A stretch of 32,343 bases of DNA. Source: Acidimicrobiales bacterium (lineage in GTDB: Bacteria; Actinomycetota; Acidimicrobiia; Acidimicrobiales; UBA8190). Position numbers and translations under genes: made by a program. Shown here piece after piece: positions 3,189-32,343 of the stretch (position 1 is the stretch's first letter; each line of letters begins with the position of its first letter). The DNA is taken from assembly GCA_031292675.1 (NCBI GenBank), contig JARLGQ010000355.1:1-32343 (forward strand), given 5' to 3'. Below the pieces are notes generated by a model. The model saw nothing but the letters and a program-made list of their open reading frames with translations. It did not search any database and was not told the DNA's origin.

Positions 3189-4919
3189 ATGCAGCGGGCA
3201 CTTAGAATCGGATTGATCTCGGGCCTTGCAGTGGCAGCCGTCGTCGCCTCGGCATTCCTCTGGTTGCCAGCAGGCGCAGGAGGAGCAGCCGACGCAGCAG
3301 GCGGAGCAGGCGGAGCAGGCGGAGCAGGCGGAGCAGCGAAGGGAACGTCAGGTACGTCAGGCTCGTCAGGTTCGTCTGCGCCTGGCCTCACGGCGACGAG
3401 CCCGTTCGTCCACGGGGTCTTGTCCAGCCTCCAGGGGGGATTCATCAACGATCAATACGGCCGAGTGGTCATCCTCCACGGGGTCAACGCCGTGTACAAG
3501 CGGCCGCCCTACGAGCTGTTCATCGATCCGGGCAAGCCGTGGAACTTCACCCGCAAGGATGCCGCCGCCATCGCTGGTCTCGGATTCAACGTCGTTCGCC
3601 TGGGGATCATCTGGGCCGGGATCGAGCCGGGCACGCTCAAAGCGAACAATCCCGCCATTTGCGCGCACGGGAACCCGAGTGATCCCCACCAGTGGAATCA
3701 GGGGGTCGCCGACCGCTACCTGTCGAGGGTGCAGGAGACGGTGGACCAGTTGGGTCGCTACCACGTGTACACCCTCTTGGACATGCACCAGGACGTCTAC
3801 AGCACCGGCTTTCGAGGTGAGGGGGCTCCGCCTTGGGCTGTTTGCACCAACGGGTTGCCGATCAAGACGTTGCCCGGGCGTTGGTCCAACAACTACTCCT
3901 CCCCCTCGCTCAATGCCGCCGTCCGCAATTTCTGGACGAACGACGTGGTGGGGGACATCCAGGGGGAGTACGACCGAAGCTGGGCCGCCGTCGCCTCGAC
4001 GTTCGAGAGCGATCCCTGGGTCGTAGGCTACGACCCCGTCAACGAGCCCTTCACCACCACCCTCGACCGGTTGACCCCCGAGGAGTTGGATGTTCGCCTC
4101 GAGTGTTTCTACACGGGGACCGCGATACCCGGGCACCTCCTCGACAGCACGAAGGCGATTGCCTGCCCTCCCGCCGTCCCCGTGCTCGGGCTGATTCCGA
4201 CGATCCTCGCTGCCGATCCGCACCACCTGATCTTCCGCGAGCCCACGATCTTCACCAGTAACGGGGCCCCCAACTACGTGGGCGCCATGAACTACCCCAA
4301 TCTGGTGCTCAATTTCCACGACTACTGCAGCTTCCGGAGCGGGGTGACCGGCAACCCGTACAATCTCGCCGCTTGCGTGGCTCAAGAGGAGTCGACCTTC
4401 GTGCGGCGGTCCGCTGAAGCCCCCTTGGTCGCCACGCCGTCAGAACCGCTTGGATTGCCCCTGTTCATGTCCGAGTTCGGCGCCACCCAGAGCTCCGAGT
4501 TGCTCCAGAATCTGACAAGGGTTGCGGACCAATCGCTGATCGGCTGGGCGTACTGGTCGTGGAAGTACTACGACGACCCCACCGGCAGCTCGGCGGAGGC
4601 ACTCGCCAGCCCCTCGGGGCAGCTGCACCCGATCGCCAATGCGCTGTCCCAGCCCTTTCCCGAGGCTGTGGCGGGATCCTTGACCTTGATCGACTACGAC
4701 GCCACCTTGGGCGCCTTCTACCTCAACTTCGTGTCCAACCCCAAGGTGCAGGCCCCCACGCTGATCGGCATTCCGTCCCGGAAGTATCCCCATGGGTACT
4801 GTGCCCGCACCTCGGCCGGCCGGCTCCGTACGGTCGGGAGCGCGGTGGAGGTGACCAATCCGTCGTCAACCGAGACGGTCGAAGTCACTGTGGTCCCTGG
4901 TCGCTGTCCCGGTCGTTGA
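3189..4919 (+). CDS. secreted GH5 endoglycoceramidase-like glycoside hydrolase
   Basis: A 576-residue exported glycosidase. Residues 1-30 form a signal peptide (MQRALR, hydrophobic core, AGA). A low-complexity linker of Gly/Ala and then Gly/Ser/Thr follows at about residues 30-65. The TIM-barrel domain starts at GVNAVYKRPP and carries LDMHQDVYS, a hallmark of the endoglycoceramidase branch of family GH5. The acid/base is Glu286 in GYDPVNEPF and the nucleophile Glu429 in FMSEFGAT. A C-terminal beta-sandwich of about 100 residues closes the protein. Family members cleave glycosphingolipids or sterol glucosides outside the cell or at the membrane. Cys residues in the barrel may form disulfides. 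The two cytoplasmic GH1 enzymes nearby could process released sugars; that link is inference. Confidence 0.9.
   Translation: MQRALRIGLISGLAVAAVVASAFLWLPAGAGGAADAAGGAGGAGGAGGAAKGTSGTSGSSGSSAPGLTATSPFVHGVLSSLQGGFINDQYGRVVILHGVNAVYKRPPYELFIDPGKPWNFTRKDAAAIAGLGFNVVRLGIIWAGIEPGTLKANNPAICAHGNPSDPHQWNQGVADRYLSRVQETVDQLGRYHVYTLLDMHQDVYSTGFRGEGAPPWAVCTNGLPIKTLPGRWSNNYSSPSLNAAVRNFWTNDVVGDIQGEYDRSWAAVASTFESDPWVVGYDPVNEPFTTTLDRLTPEELDVRLECFYTGTAIPGHLLDSTKAIACPPAVPVLGLIPTILAADPHHLIFREPTIFTSNGAPNYVGAMNYPNLVLNFHDYCSFRSGVTGNPYNLAACVAQEESTFVRRSAEAPLVATPSEPLGLPLFMSEFGATQSSELLQNLTRVADQSLIGWAYWSWKYYDDPTGSSAEALASPSGQLHPIANALSQPFPEAVAGSLTLIDYDATLGAFYLNFVSNPKVQAPTLIGIPSRKYPHGYCARTSAGRLRTVGSAVEVTNPSSTETVEVTVVPGRCPGR
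3297..3374 (+). repeat. two in-frame 9-nt tandem arrays coding the GH5 linker
   Basis: Four perfect copies of GCAGGCGGA (3297-3332), then, after a short break, three copies of a second 9-nt unit, TCAGGNNCG (3348-3374). Both keep the reading frame and encode the Gly/Ala and Gly/Ser/Thr linker between the signal peptide and the GH5 catalytic domain. Copy number could vary without loss of function. Confidence 0.9.
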
Positions 4920-8869: not shown

Positions 8870-8967
8870 GCAGCGGCCAGGTTCAGGGAGGCCAGGTTCA
8901 GGCAGCGGCCAGGTTCAGGGAGGCCAGGTTCAGGCAGCGGGCAGGGTCAGGGAGCGGGCAGGGTCAG
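8870..8967. repeat. 32-nt tandem repeat at the 3' end of GH1 copy 2
   Basis: Two perfect 32-nt copies (8870-8901 and 8902-8933) beginning GCAGCGGCCAGGTTCAGG, then a third, diverged copy (8934-8967). Each unit itself contains two copies of a CCAGGTTCAGG-like half unit. The third copy overlaps the last codons and the stop (8947-8949) of the minus-strand GH1 gene, so the array fills the space between the convergent HD and GH1 genes. Confidence 0.9.
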
Positions 8968-10155
8968 GGCGTTCGCCTTGGCCACGTCTCCGAACCAGTG
9001 GGCGCTGGGCTTGGGGTGGCGCTGGAAGGTGACGGGGTCCACGGCGCAGATGCCGAGCTTGGGCCCGAATCCCAGGTGCCACTCGAAGTTGTCGAGCAGG
9101 CTCCACACGAAGTAGCCGCGCACGTCGACCCCGTCGGCGATGCAGCGGTGCAGGCTCTGCAGGGCGGTGGTGATGAACTCGACACGCTCGGCGTCGTTCT
9201 CCGTGGCGAGCCCGTTCTCGGTCACCACCACGGGGATCCCGGTGTAGGCGGCGGCCCGTCGTACCGTGTACTCCACCACCTGAGGCCAGTACTCGTATCC
9301 CATCTGGGTCAGACGCGTCCCCGGAGGCGGCTCGACGGGCCCGGTGGGGCCGAGAACGGTGCGCTCGTAGCACTGCACGCCGATGAAGTCGTCACCGGCG
9401 GTGCCGTCGAGGAAGGTGTTCTCGAGGATCTGCTCGGCGGCGTCCCGTGTCTGCTCCCCTCCCTCGCCGGCCACGAGCTCTTCCATCGACAGCGTGATCC
9501 CGACGGGGAACGACCCCGGTCCCGAGCGCAGCGCGTCCACCGCCAGCCGGTGGGCGCGCACCATGGCCTCGTTCACCGCGAAGTGCCGGGCGTACTCGTC
9601 CTTCATGCCCGGCGGGTAAAGGCCGACGGTATAGCCCAGCACGGCCACCACGTTCGGCTCGTTGATGGTGCACGCCCAGCCGATCAGGTCGCCGATGTGG
9701 GCCACGGCACGCGCGACATAGCGCGCGAAGCGCTCCGGCGCGTCGGGGGCCTCCCACCCACCTCGCTGCGCCAGCCACCGCGGCGTCGTGAAATGGTGGA
9801 AGGTCACCACCGGTGAGACGCCGCGCTCGTGACATGCCGCGCACATCCGGCGGTAGTGGTCGAGCGCGGCAAGGGAGAATTCTCCCTCTGCGGGCTCGAT
9901 GCGGCTCCATTCGAGAGAGAAGCGGTAGGCACCGAGGCCGAGGTCGGCCACGAGTCCCACGTCCTCGTTCCACCGGTGGAACGAGTCGCAGGCGTCCCCG
10001 CTCGATTCGACGCACCCGGAGTCCGGGTTGTGCTCCCAGTCCCACCAGTCGTTGTTGACGTCGCCACCCTCGATCTGGTGCGAGGAGGTGGCTGTTCCCC
10101 ACAGGAATCCAGGCGGGAACTGCAGTGCGTGCTCGTCTTTCGCTGCGGCGCTCAT
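8947..10155 (-). CDS. GH1 family beta-glycosidase (copy 2)
   Basis: A 402-residue family 1 glycoside hydrolase. It carries FLWGTATSSHQIEGG near the N-terminus, the acid/base Glu166 in TINEPN, the nucleophile Glu313 in VVTENG and F-V-W-S-L-L-D-N-F-E-W. It aligns over its whole length with the GH1 at 843-2045, with long identical stretches (e.g. GAYRFSLEWSRIEPAEGEF), and keeps the canonical Pro after the acid/base Glu that copy 1 has lost. There is no signal peptide. A TACCGT box 6 nt before ATG 10155 suggests a leaderless transcript. The last residues (LTLPAP) are encoded in a tandem repeat. The two copies are divergent enough in sequence to be an old duplication. Confidence 0.93.
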   Translation of the reverse strand: MSAAAKDEHALQFPPGFLWGTATSSHQIEGGDVNNDWWDWEHNPDSGCVESSGDACDSFHRWNEDVGLVADLGLGAYRFSLEWSRIEPAEGEFSLAALDHYRRMCAACHERGVSPVVTFHHFTTPRWLAQRGGWEAPDAPERFARYVARAVAHIGDLIGWACTINEPNVVAVLGYTVGLYPPGMKDEYARHFAVNEAMVRAHRLAVDALRSGPGSFPVGITLSMEELVAGEGGEQTRDAAEQILENTFLDGTAGDDFIGVQCYERTVLGPTGPVEPPPGTRLTQMGYEYWPQVVEYTVRRAAAYTGIPVVVTENGLATENDAERVEFITTALQSLHRCIADGVDVRGYFVWSLLDNFEWHLGFGPKLGICAVDPVTFQRHPKPSAHWFGDVAKANALTLPAP

Positions 10156-11913: not shown

Positions 11914-13524
11914 ATGACGGTGCGTCAGATCCGGGGGGAGCACACCACCGTCACCGGCGTCCTGCGGGCCGCCGCCGACACGAACGCCGAGGTCGAGGCC
12001 TATGTCGAGATGGCCGGGCCCGGTGCCTCGGGGCTGGTCGCGCCCGGCACCGACGGGCGGGGGCGCCTGACGTTCGCGGCATGGGACGCCGCCGCCGGCG
12101 CCGTGGCGGGGTTGTTCAGCGACTTGGGAGTGGCCAAGGGTGATGTGGTGTGCCTCCTTCTCCCCTCGTCCATCGACTACGCCGTGTGCTACCAGGCCGC
12201 CGCACGGCTCGGGGCGGTCACCACAGGCGTGAACCTGCGCATGGGCGCGGCCGAGCAGGCCTCGATCACGGCCCGGGTGCATCCGGCGCTGACCGTCGTC
12301 GACACCGATGCCGTGGCGCCGGGCGCGGTTCCGCCCGGGTCGGGCCTCTTGCTGGCGCGCCACGCGCTGGCCGGCGCGTGGGAGCACACCGCGCCGCCCA
12401 TGAGCGCGGCCGACGCCCGTGATCCGGTCGCCATCGTGTGGACCAGTGGGTCCACGGGTGTGCCCAAAGGGGCGGTGTTCGACCACGCCAACCTCCAGGC
12501 CGTGGCGGCGGGCACCGACGTGCTCTCCCATCCCGGGGACCGCCGGTTGTCGCCGTTGCCCTTTCCCCATGTCGGCTACATGACCCGCGCCTGGGACGAG
12601 ATCGCCCACGGCGTCACCACCGTGATCGCGCCCCAGCCGTGGACCGCGGCGTCGGCCATCGAATTGCTGAGCTCGGAGCGGGTCACCGTCGGGCAGGGTG
12701 TGCCCACCCAGTGGGCCCTGATGCTCGCCCACCCCGACTTCGCCGGTGCCGACCTCTCTCACCTGAGGATCGCCGGCACCGGTGCGTCGCGCGTCCCGCC
12801 CGAATTGGTCCGTGCCATGCGCGCCCGCCTGGGATGTCCCGTCGTGGTGCGCTATACCTCCACCGAGTCGTCGCTCGGGACCGGAACCCGGCCCGAGGAC
12901 TCCGACGAAGTCGTGGCCACGACCGTCGGCCGGCCCGTGCCCGGTGTCGAGCTCGAGGTGGTCGACGACGACGGCACGCCGGTCGCGACCGGCGAGGTGG
13001 GAAGGGTCCGGCTGCGGTCCCCGGCGGTGCTGCGCGGGTACGTGGGCGACCTCGCCACGGGGACGCTGCTCGACCCCGTGGCCACCGCCGCGGTGCTCGA
13101 CTCCGAGGGTTGGGTCACCACGGGTGACCTCGGCTCTGTCGGCGAGGACGGCAACCTGAGGCTGGCCGGTCGTGTCACGGAGATGTACATCCGCGGCGGG
13201 TACAACGTCTACCCCGCCGAGGTAGAAGCGGTGCTGGGCGAGCTGCCCGGCATCGCCCAGGTCGCGGTGGTGGGGGCTCCCGACGCCGTCCTCGGCGAGA
13301 TCGGTGCGGCCTTCGTGGTGCCTGCGGGCGCCGGTGCTCCCCCCGAACTCGACGCGCTCCGATCGGAGTGCCGCGCCCGCCTCGCCGACTACAAGGCACC
13401 CGACCGCCTTCACCTCGTGGCCGAGCTGCCCCTCACGGCGATGGCGAAGATCGACAAGCGGGAGCTGGCGGCGCGCGCCGCCGAACTCGAGACACAACGA
13501 GTGAAGGAGCGAGTGACCACATGA
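11914..13524 (+). CDS. acyl-CoA synthetase / AMP-dependent ligase (ANL superfamily)
   Basis: A 536-residue adenylating enzyme that activates a carboxylic acid as its acyl-AMP and then acyl-CoA. The P-loop VWTSGSTGVPKGAVFDH is at about residues 172-188, the A5 motif is YTSTESSLGTG, the A7 Asp motif is VTTGDLG, the hinge is GRVTEMYIRGGYNVYPAEVE, and the catalytic Lys is in TAMAKIDKREL near the C-terminus. The acid substrate is not evident. Its stop overlaps the ATG of the EthD-like gene by 4 nt (ATGA), and that gene overlaps the SDR by GTGA, so three coupled genes form the front of the cluster. Confidence 0.93.
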   Translation: MTVRQIRGEHTTVTGVLRAAADTNAEVEAYVEMAGPGASGLVAPGTDGRGRLTFAAWDAAAGAVAGLFSDLGVAKGDVVCLLLPSSIDYAVCYQAAARLGAVTTGVNLRMGAAEQASITARVHPALTVVDTDAVAPGAVPPGSGLLLARHALAGAWEHTAPPMSAADARDPVAIVWTSGSTGVPKGAVFDHANLQAVAAGTDVLSHPGDRRLSPLPFPHVGYMTRAWDEIAHGVTTVIAPQPWTAASAIELLSSERVTVGQGVPTQWALMLAHPDFAGADLSHLRIAGTGASRVPPELVRAMRARLGCPVVVRYTSTESSLGTGTRPEDSDEVVATTVGRPVPGVELEVVDDDGTPVATGEVGRVRLRSPAVLRGYVGDLATGTLLDPVATAAVLDSEGWVTTGDLGSVGEDGNLRLAGRVTEMYIRGGYNVYPAEVEAVLGELPGIAQVAVVGAPDAVLGEIGAAFVVPAGAGAPPELDALRSECRARLADYKAPDRLHLVAELPLTAMAKIDKRELAARAAELETQRVKERVTT

Positions 13525-14444
13525 CCGAGGCCAAGGACCCGGTGACCAAGAGCGACGCTCCGGCCAAGCCGGCCGGGGAGCGGCCGCCCCGCCAGCACCC
13601 CATCGTCGCCGGGGCGGAGCCCATCAAGCTGGGGTCGATGCTCTTCACGTTGGTCGAGCCCCGGCGGGGCCACGAAGTGGCTTACAACCGCTGGTACGAG
13701 CGTGACCACTTCTATGCAGGGTGCATGATCGGTCCCTACCAGTTCGCCGGGAAGCGCTTCGTGGCCACCGCCGAGCTGAAGGCCCTGCGCGACCCCGATC
13801 CCTCCAGCATCACCGGCGAGCCCGATCGGGGAAGTTTCCTGTCCGTGTACTGGGTGCTCGACGGCTACCACGACACCTGGAACCGGTGGGCGGTGGACCA
13901 GGTGAAAGCGCTCCACAAGGCCGGCCGCATGTTCGAAGAGCGCGACCACGTCCACACCCTTCTGTACCGCTACGCGTGGGAGCGTTCCCGTGATCCCGAC
14001 GGCCTGCCCGCCGAGCTCGCACTCGACCATCCCTCGGCCGGGCTCGTCGCCGTGTTCACCGATCGCTCCGAGGGTGTCGACGCCGCCGAGTTCGAGGCGT
14101 GGATGCGCGACGAGCACCTTGCGGCGCTGCTCCCGGGGACAGCGGCCCGACTCGTGATCGCGGCGGACCCGCTGCCGCTCCTGATCGACGCGCCGGGGGA
14201 CGTGCCGCGCTCGGAGTCCGACGACCGCCGCCAGTTGACCCTGTGGTTCCTCGACACCTCGCCCCAGGAGGCCTGGGACTCGGTGGTGGTGGCACACCGG
14301 GCCGCTCTGGAGAAGTCGGGCAAGGCCACGGTCGTGGCCGCCCTGCCGTTCATCCCGACCATCCCCGGGACCGACACCTACACCGACATGCTGTGGCCCG
14401 ACCAGGACGACCGCAGCCAGAACGACCACAGGAGGTCTTCGTGA
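13521..14444 (+). CDS. EthD-like dimeric alpha/beta-barrel protein
   Basis: A 307-residue protein with no catalytic motif I can name. After a charged, Pro-rich N-terminus it shows two ferredoxin-like segments. The first, at about residues 38-80, reads MLFTLVEPRRG, then YNRWYERDHFY and G-P-Y-Q-F-A-G-K-R-F-V-A, resembling EthD and related monooxygenase or dehydratase accessory proteins. The second, around residues 175-220, reads LVAVFTDRSEGVDAAEF, then EAWMRDEHLAALL. Internal duplication is typical of dimeric alpha/beta-barrel (DABB) proteins. It is translationally coupled on both sides (ATGA with the ligase, GTGA with the SDR), so its role is presumably in the same pathway, perhaps binding or cyclising an intermediate. 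That role is inference. Confidence 0.75.
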   Translation: MTEAKDPVTKSDAPAKPAGERPPRQHPIVAGAEPIKLGSMLFTLVEPRRGHEVAYNRWYERDHFYAGCMIGPYQFAGKRFVATAELKALRDPDPSSITGEPDRGSFLSVYWVLDGYHDTWNRWAVDQVKALHKAGRMFEERDHVHTLLYRYAWERSRDPDGLPAELALDHPSAGLVAVFTDRSEGVDAAEFEAWMRDEHLAALLPGTAARLVIAADPLPLLIDAPGDVPRSESDDRRQLTLWFLDTSPQEAWDSVVVAHRAALEKSGKATVVAALPFIPTIPGTDTYTDMLWPDQDDRSQNDHRRSS

Positions 14445-15226
14445 GCCCCGATCCCGCCGTAGTCACACCGCCGGCGCGCCGTTTCGAAGGCAAGACCGCC
14501 ATCGTCACCGGGGCCGGCTCGGGCATCGGCAGGGCCACGGCCATCCGCCTCGCGGTGGAGGGAGCATCGGTGGCCTGTCTGGACGTGGTGGCCGACAATC
14601 TCGACGAGACCGTGGACGCGCTGGCCACCCTCGGAGCGAAGGCCGTCGCCTACCGCTGTGACGTCACCGACGAGTCGCAGGTCAACGAGACCGTGACCGA
14701 AGTGGCCTCGGCCCTGGGCCGGCCCGAGGTGTTGTGCAACGTGGCCGGCATCGGCACCTTCGCCCACACCGCCGAGATGCCTCTCGCCACGTGGGACCGC
14801 ATCATCGCCGTCAACCTAACCGGGACCTTCCTCATGACGAAGGCGGCTCTCGCCTACATGCTCGAGGCTCCGGGAGGCAGCATCGTCAACATCGCGTCGA
14901 CGTCGGGCATCATGGGAGCGGCGTACTCGGCCGCGTACTCCGCCTCCAAAGGCGGGGTGATCATGTTCACCAAGGCCCTGGCGATCGAGTACGCGGGCCG
15001 GGGTGTGCGCATCAACGCGGTGGCGCCCGGGGGAGTGGACACGCCGCTCATCGGGAGCTTCCGGCTTCCCGAGGGAGGGGACCCGAAGCACATCCACAGG
15101 ATCACCAGCCGCATGGGTTTCTGCACCCCCGACCAGGTCGCCGCCGCCATCGCCTTCCTGGCGTCGGACGAGTCCGCGTACACGACCGGCGCGGTCCTGG
15201 CCGTGGACGGAGGCATCACGGCGTAG
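14441..15226 (+). CDS. short-chain dehydrogenase/reductase (SDR)
   Basis: A 261-residue classical SDR. The NAD(P)-binding TGAGSGIG is at residues 23-30, the acidic residue at the end of the second strand (CLDVV) suggests NAD(H) preference, and the structural N-x-A-G motif reads CNVAG. The catalytic triad is Ser153, Tyr166 (YSASK) and Lys170, and the C-terminal GAVLAVDGGITA is typical. The start is GTG 14441, with AGGAGG 6 nt upstream and a GTGA overlap with the EthD-like gene. It probably oxidises a hydroxyl or reduces a ketone of the compound activated by the ligase at 11914; that substrate is inferred from position only. Confidence 0.93.
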   Translation: MSPDPAVVTPPARRFEGKTAIVTGAGSGIGRATAIRLAVEGASVACLDVVADNLDETVDALATLGAKAVAYRCDVTDESQVNETVTEVASALGRPEVLCNVAGIGTFAHTAEMPLATWDRIIAVNLTGTFLMTKAALAYMLEAPGGSIVNIASTSGIMGAAYSAAYSASKGGVIMFTKALAIEYAGRGVRINAVAPGGVDTPLIGSFRLPEGGDPKHIHRITSRMGFCTPDQVAAAIAFLASDESAYTTGAVLAVDGGITA

Positions 15227-15248
15227 GGCCCCGGCCGTGCCGGGTCGC

Positions 15249-15254
15249 TACCAT
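15249..15254 (+). promoter_or_regulatory. candidate leaderless -10 box (TACCAT)
   Basis: TACCAT ends 8 nt before GTG 15263. It gives the second half of the barrel-protein cluster its own start point, separate from the ligase-EthD-SDR unit. Confidence 0.45.
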
Positions 15255-15262
15255 CCACGACC

Positions 15263-15961
15263 GTGAGCCCGCCCCCGCTGTTCATCGTCACCGACGTCTC
15301 TCCGTACCCTCACGGGCCGGCCGGCGTCCACGGCGTGCTTCCCCAGGCGGCGGTGGCACTGTCGGAATTGGCCGGGCTGGCCGCCTTGGACGCCGTGCGT
15401 GTGCACGCCGTCCCCGATGTCGAGCCCGCCGCCCTGGCGGCCGGAGGCGTCCTGGCGCTGTTCACCATCGGCGAGACCCCGTGGTCCTCCGAACAGCGCG
15501 CCGCCATCACCGACGGCGTCCGCTCGGGTCGACTGGCGATCCTGGGTGTCCACGCCGCCACCGACGCGTGCACGGCGTGGGAGGAGTACGGATCGCTCCT
15601 CGGGGCCCGCTTCGACGGGCACCCGTGGACCGAGACCTTCGACATCGAGGTGCTCGACCAGTCGCACGCGAGCACGCAGCACCTCGGCGCCGTGTGGCGG
15701 TGGCACGACGAGGTCTACCTGTTCCGTGACCTGCGGCCCGACGCCCGGGTCCTGCTGCGCGTGGCGGAGGGCCAGCTCGACATGAGTGTCCCCGGGGCGC
15801 GCCGGCCGCCCGTCGGGTTCCCCCTGGCGTGGTGCTTCACCGAAGGACAGGGACGCGTCTTCTACACGTCGCTGGGGCACTTCCCCGGGGCGTGGGAGAC
15901 CCCTGCCTATCTCGGGCATCTCCAAGGTGGGCTCACGTGGGTCCTCGGCGACGGGGAATGA
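15263..15961 (+). CDS. ThuA-like domain protein
   Basis: A 232-residue protein of the ThuA (trehalose-utilisation) family, a flavodoxin/class I glutamine-amidotransferase-like fold. Recognisable elements are the central G-R-L-A-I-L-G-V-H-A-A-T-D segment, FDGHPWTETFDIEVLDQSH, the D-E-V-Y-L-F motif and the C-terminal GRVFYTSLGHFPGAWETP and GGLTWVLG. Most ThuA-like proteins are poorly characterised; some are keto-sugar isomerase-like or sugar-oxidation enzymes. A TACCAT box stands 8 nt before GTG 15263. It is followed after 16 nt by the Dabb/NIPSNAP-like gene, so it likely heads a four-gene unit. There is no signal peptide. Confidence 0.85.
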   Translation: MSPPPLFIVTDVSPYPHGPAGVHGVLPQAAVALSELAGLAALDAVRVHAVPDVEPAALAAGGVLALFTIGETPWSSEQRAAITDGVRSGRLAILGVHAATDACTAWEEYGSLLGARFDGHPWTETFDIEVLDQSHASTQHLGAVWRWHDEVYLFRDLRPDARVLLRVAEGQLDMSVPGARRPPVGFPLAWCFTEGQGRVFYTSLGHFPGAWETPAYLGHLQGGLTWVLGDGE

Positions 15962-15977
15962 GGCGGGAACGTCGGCG

Positions 15978-16298
15978 ATGATGCACCTCGTCGACACCAT
16001 CGAGGTCGAGTCCGAGCACGTGGACGGCTACCTCGAGCTGGTCAGGACCTTGGGCATGGCGGTCATGACCGACGCCGGCGCCACCTTCGTGTCGTGTGCG
16101 ACGACCCCGGGCGGGCTCGGCGAGCCCCAGCACGTCCAGGTGGTGTGGTCATGTGACGACTTCGTGCACTGGAACGAGATCCGCAAGAACATGGTGCTCG
16201 ATCCCCGCTACCACGAATACGGGAGCACGGCCGCCTCTCTGCGGGTGGGTGGGTCTCGCCGTTTCTTCGTTCCCGTGACCCTGTCGCCGTCTCCGTGA
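15978..16298 (+). CDS. small NIPSNAP/Dabb-like alpha/beta-barrel protein
   Basis: A 106-residue single-domain protein. It has the beta-alpha-beta pattern of NIPSNAP-like and Dabb proteins: first strand HLVDTIEVESEHV, helix YLELVRTLGMAVMTDAG, then QHVQVVWSCDDFVHWNEIRK and a C-terminal Y-H-E-Y-G motif. No catalytic residues can be named with confidence. Its stop overlaps the start of the next gene (GTG 16295 or ATG 16298), which is another barrel protein, so the two are translationally coupled and may form a complex. The ATG at 15978 has only a weak G-rich sequence upstream; the next codon is also ATG. Confidence 0.7.
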   Translation: MMHLVDTIEVESEHVDGYLELVRTLGMAVMTDAGATFVSCATTPGGLGEPQHVQVVWSCDDFVHWNEIRKNMVLDPRYHEYGSTAASLRVGGSRRFFVPVTLSPSP

Positions 16299-16990
16299 TG
16301 CTCCGGCGCTTCGAGGTCTACGCGCTCGGGCCCGACGCGCCGGTCGATGGCGTGCACGCCCTCGAAGCGGCGTGCCGCCTCTGCGGGCGGTTCATCCCCG
16401 AGGTCCTCGACTGCGCCATCGGCAGGAACCTGTCCGATGCGCCGGTCCAGCTCGTGTGGGAGCACGCCTACGCGTCGCCTGATGCGTACGGGCGCTACAT
16501 GGTGCACCCGTATCACGCCGTCGTCGTGGACCGCCATCTGCTGCCCGACGCACCCGAGAGGATCGTCATCGACGGCCCGTTGGGAGCCGGGCTCTACGGC
16601 TATGCCTGTGACACTCCCGCGTACCGGATGAGCGGTGGCGGTGTCCGGCGCCTCGTCCTTCTCCGCGTCGACAACGAGGCGTCGGAGACCGACCTGTCGC
16701 GGCTGCGCCAGGAGCTCGAACGGACCCCCGAGGACGTCCCCGAGATGGTGGTCTCGGTCATGGCCGCCAATTCCATGGGCTCGGCCTGGTTCGACGGGGT
16801 CACGCCGATCATGGGCCCACCGAGATGGACCCATCTGTGGGAGCAGGGTTTCCCGAGCCTCGACGCCCTCGACTCCTATCGCCGTGGCGAGTCGACCATG
16901 GCCGGCGTCGAGCGCGCCGGCTGGGACGCCGGTACAGGTGGCATCGTGAAACGTTCGGCCGAGCTCTATTACGAAGTGTGGGGAGGGTGA
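16295..16990 (+). CDS. two-domain Dabb-like protein
   Basis: A 231-residue protein with two tandem stress-response A/B-barrel (Dabb)-like halves. The first half (residues about 1-95) contains L-E-A-A-C-R-L-C-G-R-F-I-P, the strand C-A-I-G-R-N-L-S, and Y-A-S-P-D-A-Y-G-R-Y-M-V-H-P-Y-H. The second half (about 115-225) has RRLVLLRVDN, then L-S-R-L-R-Q-E-L, and HLWEQGFPSLDALDSYRRG. The H-P-x-H and helix pattern resembles Dabb domains, some of which act as polyketide cyclases (for example olivetolic acid cyclase in plants). That is known of the fold, not shown here. It overlaps the upstream gene by 4 nt and precedes the methyltransferase by 33 nt. Confidence 0.72.
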   Translation: MMLRRFEVYALGPDAPVDGVHALEAACRLCGRFIPEVLDCAIGRNLSDAPVQLVWEHAYASPDAYGRYMVHPYHAVVVDRHLLPDAPERIVIDGPLGAGLYGYACDTPAYRMSGGGVRRLVLLRVDNEASETDLSRLRQELERTPEDVPEMVVSVMAANSMGSAWFDGVTPIMGPPRWTHLWEQGFPSLDALDSYRRGESTMAGVERAGWDAGTGGIVKRSAELYYEVWGG

Positions 16991-17023
16991 GGGTGTCGGG
17001 AGACCGGGCCCGAACGCAGAGCA

Positions 17024-17821
17024 ATGGGTGACGACCGGTACCTGCTCGACAACCGGTCGGCCGGGGCCGGGACGCGCCTCGACGCCCTGGCGGCGATCTT
17101 CGACCCCACCACGTTCCGTCACATCGACGCGCTGGGCATCAGCACCGGATGGCACTGCTGGGAGGTGGGCGCAGGTGGTCCTTCGGTGGTTCGTTGGCTG
17201 GCGCAGAGGGTCGGGCCCACGGGCAGGGTGCTCGCCACCGACATCGACGTGTCGTGGACCCAGGACGGGTCGGGCCCCGGGGTCGAGGTCCGGCGCCACG
17301 ACGTCGCCCGCGATGCCGCCCCGGCGGAGACGTTCGACCTCGTCCACGCCCGCCTGGTGCTCGTGCACGTCGCCGATCGGGACGAGGCTCTGCGCTCGAT
17401 GGTGCGCGTCCTGCGCCCCGGTGGCTGGCTCCTCGTCGAGGACGCCGACCCTGCGTTGCAGCCGCTCAGCTGCCTCGACCCGCACAGTCCCGAGGAGGAG
17501 CTCGCCAACACGCTGCGCACCGGGTTCAGGGCGCTCATGGAACAGCGCGGCGTGGACCTCGCCTACGGTCGAAAGCTCCCGAGGCTTCTGCGGGGCGCGG
17601 GGCTGGTCGACGTGGCCGCCGACGCCTACTTCCCCGTGGCGAGGCCCGAGTGTGCCCGGCTCGAGTCGACCACGATGGACCTGATCCGCGACGACCTCGT
17701 GCGACACGGGATCGCCACCGGCGCGCAGATCGACCGGCACGTGGCCAGCGTCGCCGCCGGTCGCCTCGACCTGGCACAACCGCCCATGATCTCGGCCTGG
17801 GGGCGCGTGCCCGAAGCGTGA
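17024..17821 (+). CDS. class I SAM-dependent methyltransferase
   Basis: A 265-residue Rossmann-fold methyltransferase. Motif I is CWEVGAGGPSVVRWLA at about residues 45-60; the acidic residue at the end of the second strand is in LATDID; the F-D-L-V-H-A-R-L-V-L-V-H-V segment is motif III/IV; and L-R-P-G-G-W-L-L-V-E-D follows. The N-terminal YLLDNRSAGAGTRLDALAA is common in this family of small-molecule methyltransferases. The acceptor is not identifiable. It is the last gene of the ThuA-Dabb-Dabb unit (33-nt spacer), which suggests methylation of a pathway intermediate or product. The next gene has its own promoter-like box. Confidence 0.9.
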   Translation: MGDDRYLLDNRSAGAGTRLDALAAIFDPTTFRHIDALGISTGWHCWEVGAGGPSVVRWLAQRVGPTGRVLATDIDVSWTQDGSGPGVEVRRHDVARDAAPAETFDLVHARLVLVHVADRDEALRSMVRVLRPGGWLLVEDADPALQPLSCLDPHSPEEELANTLRTGFRALMEQRGVDLAYGRKLPRLLRGAGLVDVAADAYFPVARPECARLESTTMDLIRDDLVRHGIATGAQIDRHVASVAAGRLDLAQPPMISAWGRVPEA

Positions 17822-26507: not shown

Positions 26508-28820
26508 CTATTGCCGGGCCAGGGCGAAGTGGGCGTCGGCCTCGGGGTCGGCGAAGGGCGGTCCGTCGACGTCGATGACCACCCGGAGGATGCGCCCGGT
26601 GAACTCGAAGGGCGCGGCGTACCGGCGCGACACGGGGACGCCGTCGCTGTAGCCGCACGTGAGCCCGGCACCGCTGATCGAGAAGCGCATGGGCGTGAAG
26701 CGGGGGATCGTCCCTTCGCCGACCTCGACGCCGTCGACGAGCAGCCGGCCGGTCCCGGCGTGGTCGGCGGTCCTCGTGAACGCGAAGGCCACCTCGTGTC
26801 GCCCGGGAGTGACGGGGGGAACGTCCGCGTCCGCCTCGATGTGGTGCTCCTCGAGGCTCACGAAGTTGTGGACGTACGCGGGCCGGCCCTCCACCATGTA
26901 GAGAGCCCACCCCCCGAGGCCCGAGCCCTGGGAGACGAGCACGCCGCTCGCCTCCGGAGACGGCGCGGGTCCACCGGCCCCGGCGCGATCCCCGGGGATC
27001 TCGAGCTCGGCGCGCACGACGTGGGGACGGTTGCGGATGTTCACCGCCACCATCTCCGGGACCGGGGAGGCCCCCGGGTAGTAGACGTAGCGCGTGCGCG
27101 GCTGCACGGGGGGAGGCCGCTCCAACACGAACGCCGAGAAGGGACGGTTGTCGAGGGGGAGGACCTGGTGTCGCTCGGCCTCCTCCCACCACAGCCCCAT
27201 CATCTCGCGCAGCTTGTCCGGCTGCACCGCCGCCAGGTCGCGGCACTCCGAGGCATCCTCGGCCACGTGGTACAGCTCCCAGACGTCGTCGTCGAACGCG
27301 ACCCGAGTGTCCTGGATGGGGTGATACGTGACCGCCTTCCACCCGTCGTGGTAGATCGCCCGGCATCCGAACATCTCGTAGTACTGGGTGGCGTGGCGGC
27401 TCGGCACGCCGGCGTCGTCGAAGCAGTACGCGAAGGCGGTGCCCTCCACGGGGCTCTGCTCGACACCGCCCAGAGTGGCCGGCGACTCGATCCCGAGGGA
27501 TTCGAGGACGGTGGGGTAGATGTCCACGGCGTGGACGTACTGGCGACGGGTCTCACCCCGGGCCCGCATACCGCCCGGCCAGCGCACGATGAGCGGGTCG
27601 GCGACACCACCTTCGTGGGTCTCGCGCTTCCAGCGCTTGAACGGTGTGTTGCCGGCCACCGTCCATCCCCATGGATAATTGTTGTGGCACCACGGGCCGC
27701 CGATCTCGTCGATGCGGGCCAGGCCCTCCTCCACCGTGCGGGGCGCCATGTTCCACGGGCGCACGTCGTTCACCGACCCCGTGGGGCCTCCCTCGGAGCT
27801 GGCGCCGTTGTCCGACAGCACCACCACCATGGTGTTGTCGAGGTCGCCGGTCTCCTCGAGGAAGCCGAGCAGCCGCCCGATGTGGTGGTCGGTATGGCTC
27901 AGGAACCCCGCGAACGCCTCCATGTACCGGGCGTAGAGGCGTCGTGCGTCGGGCGAGAGCGAGTCCCACGCCGGCACCCAGTCCGGCCGGGGGGACAATT
28001 CGGTGCCGGGGGGCAGCACGCCGGACTGCAGCTGTCGGGCCAGCGTGGCCCGGCGCCATTTGTCCCAGCCGCCGTCGAACGCCCCCCGGTAGCGCTCGAT
28101 CCACGGCGCGGGCGCCTGGTGTGGGGCGTGGCACGCCCCGGGACAGAAGTAGAGGAAGAACGGCTTGTCGGGGTCGACGGCGCGCAGGCCCTTTACGAGC
28201 CCGAGGGCGTGGTCCACGAGGTCCTCGGTGAGGTGGTAGCCGTCCTCGGGGCGCCGTGGCGGAGGGACCTGGTGGTTGTCGGCGACGAGGGCGGGGACGT
28301 ACTGGTGCGTCTCGCCCTCCATGAAACCGTAGAAGCGCTCGAAGCCCCGGCCCAGCGGCCAGCGCGTCCGGGGGGCGGCCTCGTGGCACTCGTCTTCGGG
28401 CGTGAGGTGCCACTTGCCCACGGCCCAGGTCGAGAAACCACGCTCCACCAGCACCTCCGACAGCAGGCCGTTGGACTTCGGGATGCGGGAGTCGTAGCCC
28501 GGGAACCCCGTGGCCAGCTCGACGATCCGGCCCATGCCGTTGGAGTGGTGGTTGCGGCCGGTGAGGACACAGGCTCGCGTGGGTGAGCACAACGAGGTGG
28601 TGTGGAAGTTCGTGAACCGCAAGCCCTCGGCGGCCAGGCCGTCGAGCACGGGCGTGTCGATGTCGGAGCCGAAGCAGCCCAGCTGGGCGAACCCGACGTC
28701 GTCGAGCACGATGATCACGACGTTGGGCGTCGCCGGATCGGCGCGTCGCATCTCGGGCCACCACGGGGTCGACTCCGAGTAGTCGCGCCCGATCACCCCT
28801 TCGAACTGACCTCGTTCCAT
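26508..28820 (-). CDS. arylsulfatase (type I, formylglycine-dependent)
   Basis: A 770-residue sulfatase that hydrolyses sulfate esters. The N-terminal metal site is VVIIVLDDVGFAQLGCFG (about residues 33-50). The formylglycine precursor is Cys78 in LCSPTRACVLTGR, matching C-x-P-x-R. Further on are GKWHL, H-A-P-H-Q-A-P and LSDNGASSEGG (metal-binding Asp-Asn). The C-terminal domain of about 150 residues (from about 610) is a beta-sandwich (F-S-I-S-G-A-G-L-T-C-G-Y-S-D-G) typical of long arylsulfatases. The start is ATG 28820, preceded by AGGGGG 5 nt upstream. No signal peptide is evident, so it should be cytoplasmic. It lies downstream of an acyl-CoA ligase and thiolase, suggesting a sulfated lipid or sterol as substrate. 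Confidence 0.92.
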   Translation of the reverse strand: MERGQFEGVIGRDYSESTPWWPEMRRADPATPNVVIIVLDDVGFAQLGCFGSDIDTPVLDGLAAEGLRFTNFHTTSLCSPTRACVLTGRNHHSNGMGRIVELATGFPGYDSRIPKSNGLLSEVLVERGFSTWAVGKWHLTPEDECHEAAPRTRWPLGRGFERFYGFMEGETHQYVPALVADNHQVPPPRRPEDGYHLTEDLVDHALGLVKGLRAVDPDKPFFLYFCPGACHAPHQAPAPWIERYRGAFDGGWDKWRRATLARQLQSGVLPPGTELSPRPDWVPAWDSLSPDARRLYARYMEAFAGFLSHTDHHIGRLLGFLEETGDLDNTMVVVLSDNGASSEGGPTGSVNDVRPWNMAPRTVEEGLARIDEIGGPWCHNNYPWGWTVAGNTPFKRWKRETHEGGVADPLIVRWPGGMRARGETRRQYVHAVDIYPTVLESLGIESPATLGGVEQSPVEGTAFAYCFDDAGVPSRHATQYYEMFGCRAIYHDGWKAVTYHPIQDTRVAFDDDVWELYHVAEDASECRDLAAVQPDKLREMMGLWWEEAERHQVLPLDNRPFSAFVLERPPPVQPRTRYVYYPGASPVPEMVAVNIRNRPHVVRAELEIPGDRAGAGGPAPSPEASGVLVSQGSGLGGWALYMVEGRPAYVHNFVSLEEHHIEADADVPPVTPGRHEVAFAFTRTADHAGTGRLLVDGVEVGEGTIPRFTPMRFSISGAGLTCGYSDGVPVSRRYAAPFEFTGRILRVVIDVDGPPFADPEADAHFALARQ

Positions 28821-28917
28821 CGTTCCCCCTGTGGTCGGGCGCCCCACGGGCACCGATCGGGCGCGCTTGAGGACCCGCGGACCGTGGGAGCGGGCGTCGA
28901 GGGCCGCGCCGCCGGAG

Positions 28918-30477
28918 TCAGCCCCCAAAGGGCTTGTCCGCCAGCTCCTCGCGCAGCTTGTACTTGAGCACCTTGTTCAGAGTCTCGTTGCGGGGGAGGG
29001 CGTCGACCACCTCGAGCTGTTCGGGCACCTTCTGTTTCATGTGGTGCGCGGCCCGCAGGTGCGCCACCATCTCGTCGAAGCGCAGCGGCTCCGCGCCCTT
29101 GGCCGTCTCGACCACCGCGCACACACGTTCGCCGCGCTCGCGGTCGGGCAGGCCCACCACGGCCACGTCGCCCACCTTGGGGTGGGTGTAGAGGAGGTCT
29201 TCGATCTCCTTGGCCGAGATGTTCTCGCCCTTGCGGATGATGATGTCCTTGAGACGCCCGGTGAGCACGACATGGCCGTCGGGCCGCAGGTGCCCGACGT
29301 CGCCGGTCCGGAAGTAGCCCTGGTCGTCGAAGGACTCGGCGCTGAGGACCGGGTCGGTGTAGCCCTTGCACACCATGGCGCCCCGCACCCGCACCTCGCC
29401 GTCCACCCCGGTCGCGGCTTCGGTCTCCTCGAGGGTCACGATGCGGACCTCGGCGCCGAAGACCGGCTTGCCGACGGTGTGGGCCAGCTGGTCCTCGGAG
29501 TCCGACGGCGATCCCATGCAGATCATGGGGATCTCGGTCATGCCGTAGCCGTGGGCGACCACCACGCCGATCTCGCGGGCCACCTCGTGGAAGATCTCCG
29601 GCGGCATGGGCGCCCCCCCGCCTGTCAGGAGGCGCAGTGTCGGGATGATCTTCTTCCCCGGCTGCTTGCGCTGTTCGTTGAGATAGGCCATGTAGAAGGC
29701 GGTGCTCCCCCCGGCCATCGTGACCCCGTTGCGCGAGAACACCTCGACGGCGACATCGGGCACGAACGACTCGAGCAGCACGGTCGAGAAGCCGGTGGCG
29801 AGCACCGTGACGAGATAGTCGGGACCGGCGATGTGCGCGAAGGGGAAGGCGATGGACCCCACGTCCTGCTCGCTCAGCTCCACCGCCATGGCGAGGCCGC
29901 GGCCGCCGGTGACGAGCGTGGTGTCGGTGTGGCGCACGCCCTTGGGGTCGGAGGTGGTGCCCGAGGTGTAGTAGATCCAGCGGACCTGCTCGCCCCCCGG
30001 CGGCGGGGGAGCGGGAAGCGTGGCGGGGTCGCCCTCGGGGAGCGAGTCGTAGGCGACGACCACGGTCGGGGGCCGTTTCAGACCGGCGCCGATCGTGTCC
30101 GCCATGGCGACGTAGTCGAAGCCCTTCCACACGCCGGGGACGAAGAAGAACTCGGCCCCGGTCTGAGCCAGGGCGAAAGCCACCTCGCGCTCGCGGTAGA
30201 TGTGGATGATGGGGTTCTGCACCACGCCCAGGCGCGCCAGTGCCATCGACAGGACGATGGTCTCGATCCGGGTGGGAAGCTGCCACGACACCGCCGTCGA
30301 CGGGCCCACCCCCATGGCGTGCAGCCCGGCCGCGACGACTTCGCACCGGTCCCGGAACTCGCCGAAGGTGATCTCGCGGCCGGCCTCGTCGACCAGCATG
30401 CGATGGTCCCCGGACGCGGCCGCCCGGGCCTCGACGAGCTCCCACATCGAACCCACGTCGTAGATGACGCCGGCCAC
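28918..30477 (-). CDS. acyl-CoA synthetase (AMP-forming), FadD-like
   Basis: A 519-residue ANL-superfamily ligase that activates fatty, cyclic or steroid-derived acids to their CoA thioesters. The ATP-binding motif is YYTSGTTSDPKGVRHT at about residues 165-180; the A5 motif is HGYGMTEIP; the A7 Asp is in YFRTGDVG; the hinge is GRLKDIIIRKGENISAKEIE; and the catalytic Lys is in NKVLKYKLREEL. Relatives include cyclohexanecarboxylate-CoA ligase and FadD3-type enzymes. The start is GTG 30477, preceded by GGGGG 6 nt upstream; the frame is open to 30552 but would overlap the thiolase. It is 31 nt downstream of the thiolase gene and 97 nt upstream of the sulfatase, all on one strand. Confidence 0.92.
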   Translation of the reverse strand: MAGVIYDVGSMWELVEARAAASGDHRMLVDEAGREITFGEFRDRCEVVAAGLHAMGVGPSTAVSWQLPTRIETIVLSMALARLGVVQNPIIHIYREREVAFALAQTGAEFFFVPGVWKGFDYVAMADTIGAGLKRPPTVVVAYDSLPEGDPATLPAPPPPGGEQVRWIYYTSGTTSDPKGVRHTDTTLVTGGRGLAMAVELSEQDVGSIAFPFAHIAGPDYLVTVLATGFSTVLLESFVPDVAVEVFSRNGVTMAGGSTAFYMAYLNEQRKQPGKKIIPTLRLLTGGGAPMPPEIFHEVAREIGVVVAHGYGMTEIPMICMGSPSDSEDQLAHTVGKPVFGAEVRIVTLEETEAATGVDGEVRVRGAMVCKGYTDPVLSAESFDDQGYFRTGDVGHLRPDGHVVLTGRLKDIIIRKGENISAKEIEDLLYTHPKVGDVAVVGLPDRERGERVCAVVETAKGAEPLRFDEMVAHLRAAHHMKQKVPEQLEVVDALPRNETLNKVLKYKLREELADKPFGG

Positions 30478-30508
30478 GCCGATCCCCCTCTGTCCCGGAC
30501 GTGCCCGT

Positions 30509-31711
30509 CTACGACAGGCGTTCGACGACCATGGCCATGCCCTGGCCGCCACCGACGCACATCGACTCGAGCCCCCACGTCTTGTTCTCGTCGTCGAGGG
30601 CGTTGAGCAGCGTGGTCATGATGCGCGCCCCGGTCTTGCCGAAGGGGTGGCCCAGGGCGATGGCGCCTCCCCGCACGTTGAGCTTGTCCCAGTCGATGCC
30701 GAGATGCTTCGCCGACGGGATGACCTGCGCCGCGAAGGCCTCGTTGATCTCGACGAGTTCGATGTCGTCCATGGTCTTGCCCGCCCGCTTGAGGGCCTGA
30801 CGACACGCGTCGATGGGCCCGAGGCCCATGATCTCGGGGTCGAGCGCGGAGACGCCGCTGGAGACGATGCGCGCCAGCGGGGTGATGCCCAGCTCGCTCG
30901 CCTTGGACTGCGACATCACCACCACCGCCGCCGCGCCGTCGTTGAGAGGACAGGCGTTTCCGGCGGTGACGGTGCCCCCCTCGCGGAACACCGGCTTGAG
31001 CGCGGCCAGCCCCTCGACCGTGGTGTCGGGCCGGGGCCCGTCGTCTTTGGAGACCACGGTGCCGTCGTCGAGGGTCACGGGGATGATCTCGCGCTCGAAG
31101 AACCCGTTCTTCTGGGACTCCACCGCCAGGTTCTGGCTGCGGGCCGCGAACCTGTCCATCTCCTCGCGTGTGACCTTCTCGTACTCCGCCACGTTCTAGG
31201 CCGTCTGGCCCATGGCGATGTTCACGTCACCGATGCCCTTGGGCGGCGTCCACGGCTCGGTCACCGCCGGGTTGCGCGCCGCGGTGCGGGCCTCGGCTTC
31301 GGCGAAGGCCGGGTTGTGGGCTCCGACGTCTGACGCTCCGAACTGGAACCGGCTCACGGTCTCCACGCCCGCCGCCACGAACACGTCGCCCTCCCCGGCC
31401 CGGATGGCATGGGCCGCCATGCGGATGGTCTGCAGCGACGAGGAGCAGTAGCGGTTGACGGTGACCCCCGGAACGTCGATGCCGGCCAGGATGGCCGCCA
31501 CCCGGGCGACGTTGTAGCCAGCTTCCCCCGCGGGCTGGCCGCACCCGAGCATGACGTCCTCGATCAGCGCCGGGTCGAGCTGGGGGACCTTGGCCACCAC
31601 TTCCTTGATGACCAGGGCGGCCAGGTCGTCGGGGCGGCAGCTCACGAGCGAGCCCTTGTTGGCGCGTCCGATGGGCGTTCTTCCGGTGGCGACGATGACG
31701 GCGTCGGGCAT
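30509..31711 (-). pseudogene. acetyl-CoA acetyltransferase (thiolase) with in-frame TAG
   Basis: A thiolase gene of 400 codons, the usual length, broken by TAG at codon 172 (31196-31198). The first part has the acyl-accepting Cys89 in NRYCSSSLQ. After the stop, the same frame continues with NVAEYEKVTREEMDRFAARS, then NEAFAAQ, His355 in GHPFG and Cys385 in CVGGGQG. Families read M-G-x-T-A-E-N-V-A at the break; here GQTA-stop-NVAEYEK replaces the conserved Glu. GAG to TAG is a single change. The gene starts at ATG 31711 with AAGGAG 9 nt upstream. Degradative thiolases cleave 3-ketoacyl-CoA. The gene may be dead, a sequencing error or read through; a GTG at 31192 with no binding site could start only a C-terminal fragment. 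Confidence 0.93.
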
Positions 31712-31910
31712 GTGTCGTGGCTCCTTGGCTGCGTGCTCGGGGAAGGCCCTAGGTTGGCACAGGCGGCCGGGGACGGCCCAAGTGTCCTGGTGCCACGCTC
31801 GATGTGTGTGGGCTCGCCGCTTCCCCGCCCGTCGGTGAGTGGGCCCCCGTCGGAGGGTGGTCGCCCTGTCCCGCCGGCGGCCGGCCGCTGGCCCCCGCCG
31901 AGGGCGGAAC

Positions 31911-31924
31911 TGTAACCTGTTCCA
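31911..31924. promoter_or_regulatory. KstR-like operator
   Basis: TGTAACCTGTTCCA matches TnnAACnnGTTnnA, the palindrome bound by KstR, the TetR-family repressor of steroid catabolism genes in mycobacteria and Rhodococcus. It lies 30 nt upstream of the acyl-CoA dehydrogenase start and is nested in a longer GAAC..GTTC arrangement (GGAACTG before, AGGTTC after). The thiolase start is 200 nt away on the other strand. Confidence 0.65.
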
Positions 31925-31954
31925 GGTTCGACCCGGAAGAAGGGCAGGGCGGGC

Positions 31955-32343
31955 ATGGAGATCGGCTACACCGAGGAGCAACAGGCGCTGCGCCAGGAGC
32001 TGCGCGAGTACTACGAGAACCTGCTCACCCCCGAGGTCGAGGCGGAGCTGTCCCAGAGCCACGGCATCGGGCCCACCGTCCGGCGGATCACCAAGCAGAT
32101 GGCGAGCGACGGGTGGTTGGGGATCGGATGGCCCAAGGCGTACGGGGGCCAGGGCCGCTCGGCCATCGAGCAGTTCATCTTCTTCGACGAGTCGATGCGA
32201 TCGGGTGCGCCCGTGCCCATGCTCACCATCAACACCGTCGGCCCCACCATCATGAACTTCGGCACCGACGAGCAGAAGGCGTTCTTCCTACCCAAGATCC
32301 TGGCCGGCGAGATCCACTTCTGCATCGGCTACTCCGAGCCCCA
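31955..32343 (+). CDS. acyl-CoA dehydrogenase, partial (steroid/fatty-acid FadE type)
   Basis: The first 129 residues of an acyl-CoA dehydrogenase; it continues past the right edge. The all-helical N-terminal domain is seen: IGYTEEQQALRQELREYYEN, then GWLGIGWPKAYGGQGRS, F-F-D-E-S-M, and F-G-T-D-E-Q-K-A-F-F-L-P-K-I-L-A-G-E. The last residues, IGYSEP, begin the segment that binds FAD. The pattern (T-P-E near residue 26 and W-P-K-x-Y-G-G-Q-G-R-S) resembles the FadE26-like dehydrogenases of steroid side-chain degradation, which work as two-subunit enzymes. The start is ATG 31955, with a G-rich stretch upstream. It is divergent from the thiolase and lies just downstream of the KstR-like operator. 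Confidence 0.9.
   Translation, partial: MEIGYTEEQQALRQELREYYENLLTPEVEAELSQSHGIGPTVRRITKQMASDGWLGIGWPKAYGGQGRSAIEQFIFFDESMRSGAPVPMLTINTVGPTIMNFGTDEQKAFFLPKILAGEIHFCIGYSEP

Follow-up and report, generated by a model that had tools for sequence, protein, structure and literature searches.

Do seven consecutive genes that share one strand of an Acidimicrobiales genome form a single pathway? The genes occupy positions 11914-17821 of the window, by which we mean the whole stretch of 32,343 nucleotides that was analysed (contig JARLGQ010000355.1 of assembly GCA_031292675.1), one contig in a genome of 406 contigs that is 86% complete. An initial annotation had described the run as seven contiguous same-strand genes, and all seven open reading frames were indeed found, on the + strand. 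It had also read them as one pathway; in relatives, only the first three are co-conserved. These encode an acyl-CoA ligase (lig1), a two-domain dimeric alpha/beta-barrel protein (EthD2) and a short-chain dehydrogenase/reductase (SDR) and probably constitute a steroid catabolism module in uncultured Acidimicrobiia, the other four genes being unrelated and on the same strand by neighbourhood. For the trio, we established synteny and, in relatives, a position beside genes of ring C/D and side-chain type; EthD2 itself co-occurs genome-wide with ring C/D genes and has a predicted tandem-barrel fold. The expectation of a CoA-based small-molecule pathway with a central alpha/beta-barrel protein agrees with this steroid context, and of the two options named there, biosynthesis and degradation, the second applies, as the trio belongs with steroid catabolism.

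Knowledge of steroid degradation comes mainly from mycobacteria, rhodococci, Comamonas, Pseudomonas and sphingomonads, and side-chain removal in the last group is described as largely unknown. Among marine Acidimicrobiales, cholesterol degradation and CYP125/142 have been noted in deep-sea genera (PMC10205998). We found no published report of the EthD2 family or of the lig1-EthD2-SDR module, which we rate as a new part of a pathway whose type is known. Our data link an unnamed family to steroid catabolism, both in a large actinobacterial order of soil and lake that is mostly uncultured and on sphingomonad plasmids, and they raise the question of how rings A and B are opened in genomes that have ring C/D genes and lack a recognisable HsaC or KstD.

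The lig1-EthD2-SDR block and its surroundings

The AMP-forming ligase lig1 (11914-13524, + strand; PF00501 at 214 bits, PF13193 at 67 bits), EthD2 (13521-14444, +) and the SDR (14441-15226, +; PF13561 at 204 bits) open the run. Its junctions measure, in order, -4, -4, 36, 16, -1 and 33 bp, so that the tight spacing noted in the initial annotation stands, for all six junctions (at most 36 bp) and not for the five it had counted. In a conservation survey of 99 genomes of the order, labelled G001 and so on, seven family members (G001, G003, G005, G006, G012, G014 and G016) keep the trio in synteny, with identities of 66-90%; some of their loci are cut by contig ends. The lig1 orthologs beside EthD2 in family members are 66-85% identical, and the SDR orthologs straight after it 69-90%. 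We also compared 80 named loci from GTDB contigs, nearly all from metagenome-assembled genomes (MAGs) of Acidimicrobiia; a lig1-family gene is an immediate neighbour of EthD2 in 29/74 loci. The best NCBIfam model for lig1 is FadD3 (NF005801), a HIP-CoA synthetase, for which lig1 at 311 bits misses the cut-off of 657, and the FadD3 that does exceed it in relatives is a gene separate from lig1. For the SDR, no equivalog cut-off was reached among the NCBIfam models reported.

The genes around the trio point to steroid rings C and D. In G012 and G014, they include FadD3, a PRK07831 protein and a PRK07851 thiolase, the G012 copies of which pass their cut-offs (728 bits against 657, 407 against 336 and 658 against 580, respectively); the last two we take to be IpdF and a FadA6-type thiolase, as the gene order agrees with this. 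Both in G012 and in G014, the trio is also accompanied by a FadE30-like acyl-CoA dehydrogenase, an NDMA-type alcohol dehydrogenase, a sulfatase and a second ligase. In further Acidimicrobiia loci, we again found the order fadE30-ipdF-fadD3, which corresponds to the neighbouring Rv3560c, Rv3559c and Rv3561 of Mycobacterium tuberculosis, in which fadA6 is Rv3556c (PMC5380842). One large subset of loci reads FadE30, IpdF, FadD3, alcohol dehydrogenase, lig1, EthD2, lig2, SDR, P450 and ferredoxin, then thiolase and FadE26/FadE27-like genes, and the trio contig of G003 carries a CYP125-like P450 (its closest PDB entry is a CYP125 ancestor, E 8e-154).

The window retains the thiolase, lig2 and a FadE26-like gene at 28918-32341, as G003 does, with more genes between them and the trio. 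The second acyl-CoA ligase lig2 (28918-30477, - strand) has orthologs of 75-80% identity close to the trio in G003, G005, G006, G012 and G014. Orthologs of the FadA6-type thiolase (30509-31711, -) pass NF005890/PRK07851 at 658 and 670 bits against a cut-off of 580. The FadE26-like acyl-CoA dehydrogenase (31955-32341, +; best PDB match 4x28_A, E 1.7e-47) is an N-terminal part cut by the contig end, and its orthologs adjoin the same thiolase in relatives. Next to lig2 lies a sulfatase (26508-28928, -; PF00884 at 210 bits), possibly a steroid sulfatase; in G012 and G014, homologs of 71-73% identity are direct neighbours of the trio.

The closest known system is the KstR2-type HIP cluster of M. 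tuberculosis and relatives, which shares fadE30-ipdF-fadD3, a nearby FadA6-type thiolase and, in the same genomes, IpdB (PMC5380842). By comparison, the loci of Acidimicrobiia also hold lig1, EthD2, lig2, an SDR and an alcohol dehydrogenase, and the window keeps only part of the surroundings. We know of no counterparts to these five added genes in the mycobacterial HIP cluster.

Association of EthD2 with ring C/D genes

EthD2 occurs in 36 of the 99 genomes. IpdF exceeds its cut-off in 33/36 of them compared to 4/63 EthD2-negative genomes (p 2e-18), and IpdB, searched with the Novosphingobium aromaticivorans pNL2 protein, is present in 33/36 and 5/63, respectively (p 1.4e-17). After collapsing the genomes to 60 families, the counts become 22/22 versus 4/38 for IpdF and 21/22 versus 4/38 for IpdB. 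A FadD3-like gene scoring at least 580 bits is found in 33/36 EthD2 genomes. Trio genomes carry the steroid ring C/D (HIP) gene set of IpdB, IpdF and FadD3, although the window genome yielded only IpdB of the three. Among the other exceptions are G087, with a truncated IpdF plus FadD3, and G041, with IpdF and a partial IpdB; in every EthD2 genome, one or more of IpdF, FadD3, IpdB and an HsaC-like gene is present. Given that 24/33 genomes have EthD2 and IpdF on separate contigs (many of the assemblies are fragmented), the association is not one of linkage alone. Since genomes with EthD2 almost always carry steroid-ring degradation genes, the protein is a candidate for a missing enzyme of this pathway.

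A similar association was found outside the order. In a plasmid collection, EthD2 (47-51% identity) appeared in 12 records, all from Sphingobium. Of these hosts, S. herbicidovorans MH has been reported to break down bile salts (PMC12175502) and, in part, alpha-tomatine, and degradation of alpha-tomatine is also described for the Tom isolates (PMC10653915). Around the plasmid copies lie CoA ligases, SDRs, crotonases, a nitronate monooxygenase and flavin monooxygenases, which are annotated as cyclohexanone monooxygenase in one strain. The Zn alcohol dehydrogenase near the Sphingobium EthD2 is 54% identical to the Acidimicrobiia one, and for the epimerase beside EthD2, no homolog turned up in the Acidimicrobiia loci at the chosen threshold. 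Cultured Sphingobium offers a single EthD2 gene that can be deleted.

EthD2 homologs also occur in other settings. Stand-alone copies (L064-L071, L073-L075 and L095) sit between miaB/miaA-type genes and lexA, outside steroid clusters; lineages with such copies, e.g., G038, still carry IpdF, IpdB and a FadD3-like gene. Single-domain PF07110 EthD proteins are found near the EthD2 homologs of L103, L107-L111, L113, L119 and L137, in a second type of neighbourhood with a CoA-transferase, an LLM oxidoreductase and an epimerase-like gene. In L077, L078, L081, L082, L095 and plasmid L157, spanning two phyla, EthD2 homologs adjoin putative Baeyer-Villiger-type flavin monooxygenases, as read from sequence and annotation. 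Finally, L062, L128 and L135 are titled Acidobacteriota or Bifidobacterium breve but have Acidimicrobiia-like content and are likely mislabelled MAG records.

Possible reaction and substrate of EthD2

Sequence comparisons did not place EthD2 in a family. There is no Pfam match at E<=1 and no NCBIfam match; a profile comparison with five EthD-type proteins gave E 0.12 and no alignment to PF07110, and neither EthD (PF07110) nor Dabb (PF07876) is matched, even though both families belong to the same barrel fold class. PDB sequence searches with EthD2 profiles returned nothing usable. The AlphaFold2 model, built with 61 homologs, is confident (mean pLDDT 89.5, pTM 0.85) and predicts a tandem dimeric alpha/beta-barrel with two beta-alpha-beta-beta-alpha-beta repeats, the halves of which have no significant similarity when compared by profile. 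It matches alpha/beta-barrel proteins at Z 11-16, among them the marine metagenome protein 2pgc (16.1), sulfur oxygenase reductase (14) and the coproheme decarboxylase HemQ (12), and the top Foldseek match is bacterial chalcone isomerase. All four are tandem barrels like EthD2; at about 6-17% identity, the likeness is one of architecture. The earlier description of the second gene as a two-domain EthD-like protein is thus retained for the predicted fold and dropped for the family. Across 62 sequences, most of NRWYERDHFYAG (56-67), W123, R136, R141, H143 and H145 are invariant or nearly so. In one genome, G028, the EthD2-like matches number seven; this expansion may point to more than one steroid or terpenoid route.

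In a steroid module, lig1 would turn a carboxylated steroid intermediate into its CoA thioester, and the SDR would oxidise or reduce a ring hydroxyl or keto group. EthD2 would catalyse a step without bound cofactor in the barrel cavity, most likely an acid-base elimination or addition of water, an isomerisation or a C-C cleavage, with conserved His, Asp, Glu and Arg as the presumed catalytic residues. A precedent is Hsh3, the 7beta-hydroxysteroid dehydratase of Sphingobium sp. Chol11, described as an EthD-domain dimeric alpha/beta-barrel that has a single major cavity, is built of two mirror halves and acts in steroid degradation (PMC12175502); its description was the only paper that a search of a literature library returned for EthD together with steroid degradation. 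By analogy, we propose that EthD2 may carry out a cofactor-free lyase or dehydratase step.

A narrower form of this explanation would make EthD2 a hydroxysteroid dehydratase like Hsh3, eliminating a ring hydroxyl adjacent to a conjugated ketone as water, either ahead of HIP breakdown or in its course. EthD2 is likewise a predicted tandem barrel tied to steroid genes, and both are two-half alpha/beta-barrel proteins from a steroid degradation context. However, a common fold and pathway do not establish a common reaction, and we regard this narrower form as somewhat unlikely. EthD2 has no BLASTP or profile similarity to the N. aromaticivorans Hsh3 homolog (WP_011906908.1, named in PMC12175502), the only reported Hsh3 homolog of S. 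herbicidovorans (WP_234810817.1) differs from its EthD2 (WP_037469413.1), and the two genes form separate loci within the same Sphingobium plasmids. Membership of EthD2 in the Hsh3 family was rejected by sequence (BLASTP E 0.57, hhalign probability 0.3% against Hsh3 homologs). With a shared barrel fold but no detectable sequence similarity, EthD2 may work like Hsh3 without belonging to its family.

Several observations weigh against a steroid role for the trio, beginning with this lack of a sequence relation to Hsh3. The window genome, at 86% completeness, has IpdB and lacks FadD3 and IpdF; its sister G001 lacks both as well, and an HsaC-like gene alone was found there, which suggests that the pathway may be reduced in the genus. 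The window thiolase has an in-frame stop (31196-31198) within an 85% single-frame match over 400 aa, the 400-aa reading frame of relatives being intact, and is either affected by a sequencing error or a pseudogene. At 48/74 EthD2 loci, no FadD3, IpdF, FadA6 or FadE26-30 family gene was called in the available flanks, many of which are short. Recognisable ring A/B genes are also few. An HsaC-like gene (TIGR03213) was recognised in only 4/36 EthD2 genomes, leaving 32/36 without, and a KstD-like gene at 1e-80 in 10/36, leaving 26/36 without; diverged enzymes could be missed in both cases. For HsaC, we used a threshold of 200 bits because the N. aromaticivorans protein itself scores 236, and no genome passes the model's own cut-off. 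KshA-like Rieske oxygenases, searched with an alphaproteobacterial query, are enriched (14/36 versus 2/63), which is suggestive, but the matches (30-43% in 16 genomes) are too distant to assign. With HsaC and KstD mostly unrecognised, we infer the steroid substrate mainly from the ring C/D genes. These gaps could stem from divergence of the enzymes, from a different route, or from the uptake of intermediates that other organisms produce.

EthD2 genomes may use an alternative route for rings A and B. In its boldest version, EthD2, lig1, lig2, the SDR and the alcohol dehydrogenase would be the core of an unrecognised route for ring A/B opening or side-chain removal that feeds the HIP pathway without the 9,10-seco enzymes KstD and HsaC, with EthD2 as a new family of cofactor-free steroid lyases; we consider this proposal unlikely as a whole. 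The scarcity of recognisable ring A/B genes in EthD2 genomes also fits a reading in which the trio serves some other CoA-linked degradation, of a terpenoid, a hopanoid or another alicyclic acid, and co-occurs with steroid genes only because its carriers are catabolic generalists. The models matched by lig1 and lig2, FadD3-like and cyclohexanecarboxylate-CoA-ligase-like, both below cut-off, would fit such a substrate too. This second reading is nevertheless improbable: the link of EthD2 to IpdF and IpdB persists when families are counted and is physical in several lineages; several EthD2-negative genomes are likewise rich in FadD-type ligases; and EthD2 is independently associated with steroid degraders in Sphingobium. 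A steroid catabolism module therefore remains our preferred explanation for the trio.

The other four genes of the run

Downstream of the trio lie genes for a ThuA-like protein (15263-15961, +; PF06283 at 119 bits), a NIPSNAP-like single-domain protein (15978-16298, +), a two-domain Dabb protein (16298-16990, +) and an S-adenosylmethionine-dependent methyltransferase (17024-17821, +; PF08241, Methyltransf_11, at 52 bits). The families assigned initially hold for the ligase, SDR, ThuA, Dabb and methyltransferase genes, which pass their Pfam cut-offs; EthD was unmatched, and the NIPSNAP-like protein reaches 17.3 bits where PF07978 demands 22.3. For the Dabb protein, PF07876 (41.9 bits, cut-off 25) covers residues 8-92, the N-terminal half only. 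Its AlphaFold2 model from a single sequence had a pLDDT of 40 and was left out of the fold search, so that among the barrel proteins picked out initially, the fold is supported by a confident model for EthD2 and not for Dabb.

The neighbourhood in relatives is likewise conserved in part, for lig1-EthD2-SDR and not for these four genes. The run falls apart into separate units: the trio (11914-15226), the NIPSNAP-like and Dabb pair, ThuA, and the methyltransferase. In G003, a genome that is 93% complete, contig C31 carries the trio, C66 carries ThuA, and C78 carries the methyltransferase (a 76% homolog), approximately 3.6 kb from the NIPSNAP-Dabb pair. This pair is kept in G003, G012 and G014, on contigs other than that of the trio. 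ThuA homologs lie on other contigs in G003, G006, G062, G084 and G093, and ThuA directly follows the trio solely in the sister genome G001. Scattering of this kind means that the seven-gene arrangement is genus-specific at most, and the four genes look like unrelated neighbours of the trio. A single seven-gene operon with three barrel proteins as cyclases or decarboxylases is very unlikely: the tight same-strand spacing, a weak profile match of the Dabb protein to olivetolic acid cyclase (E 0.009) and the presence of EthD2 in all five Dabb-bearing genomes speak for it, but G003, G012 and G014 have the units on separate contigs, and the genes for Dabb, the NIPSNAP-like protein and ThuA (in 5, 4 and 8 of the 99 genomes, respectively) are rare compared to EthD2. 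The polyketide-type cyclase role once considered is unsupported, with no polyketide synthase among the window genes scanned.

Promoter and terminator scans of the window gave nothing exceeding shuffled sequences. Glycoside hydrolase genes lie upstream of the run, two GH1-like (840-2045 and 8947-10155) and one GH5 (3189-4919). In G006, the ThuA homolog adjoins a GH1-like gene that is homologous to GH1 of the window, which suggests that the ThuA gene of the window belongs with sugar use. On the other side, genes on the + strand continue past the methyltransferase to 20880 and include an L,D-transpeptidase and an SRPBCC-type (Polyketide_cyc2) protein, among others.

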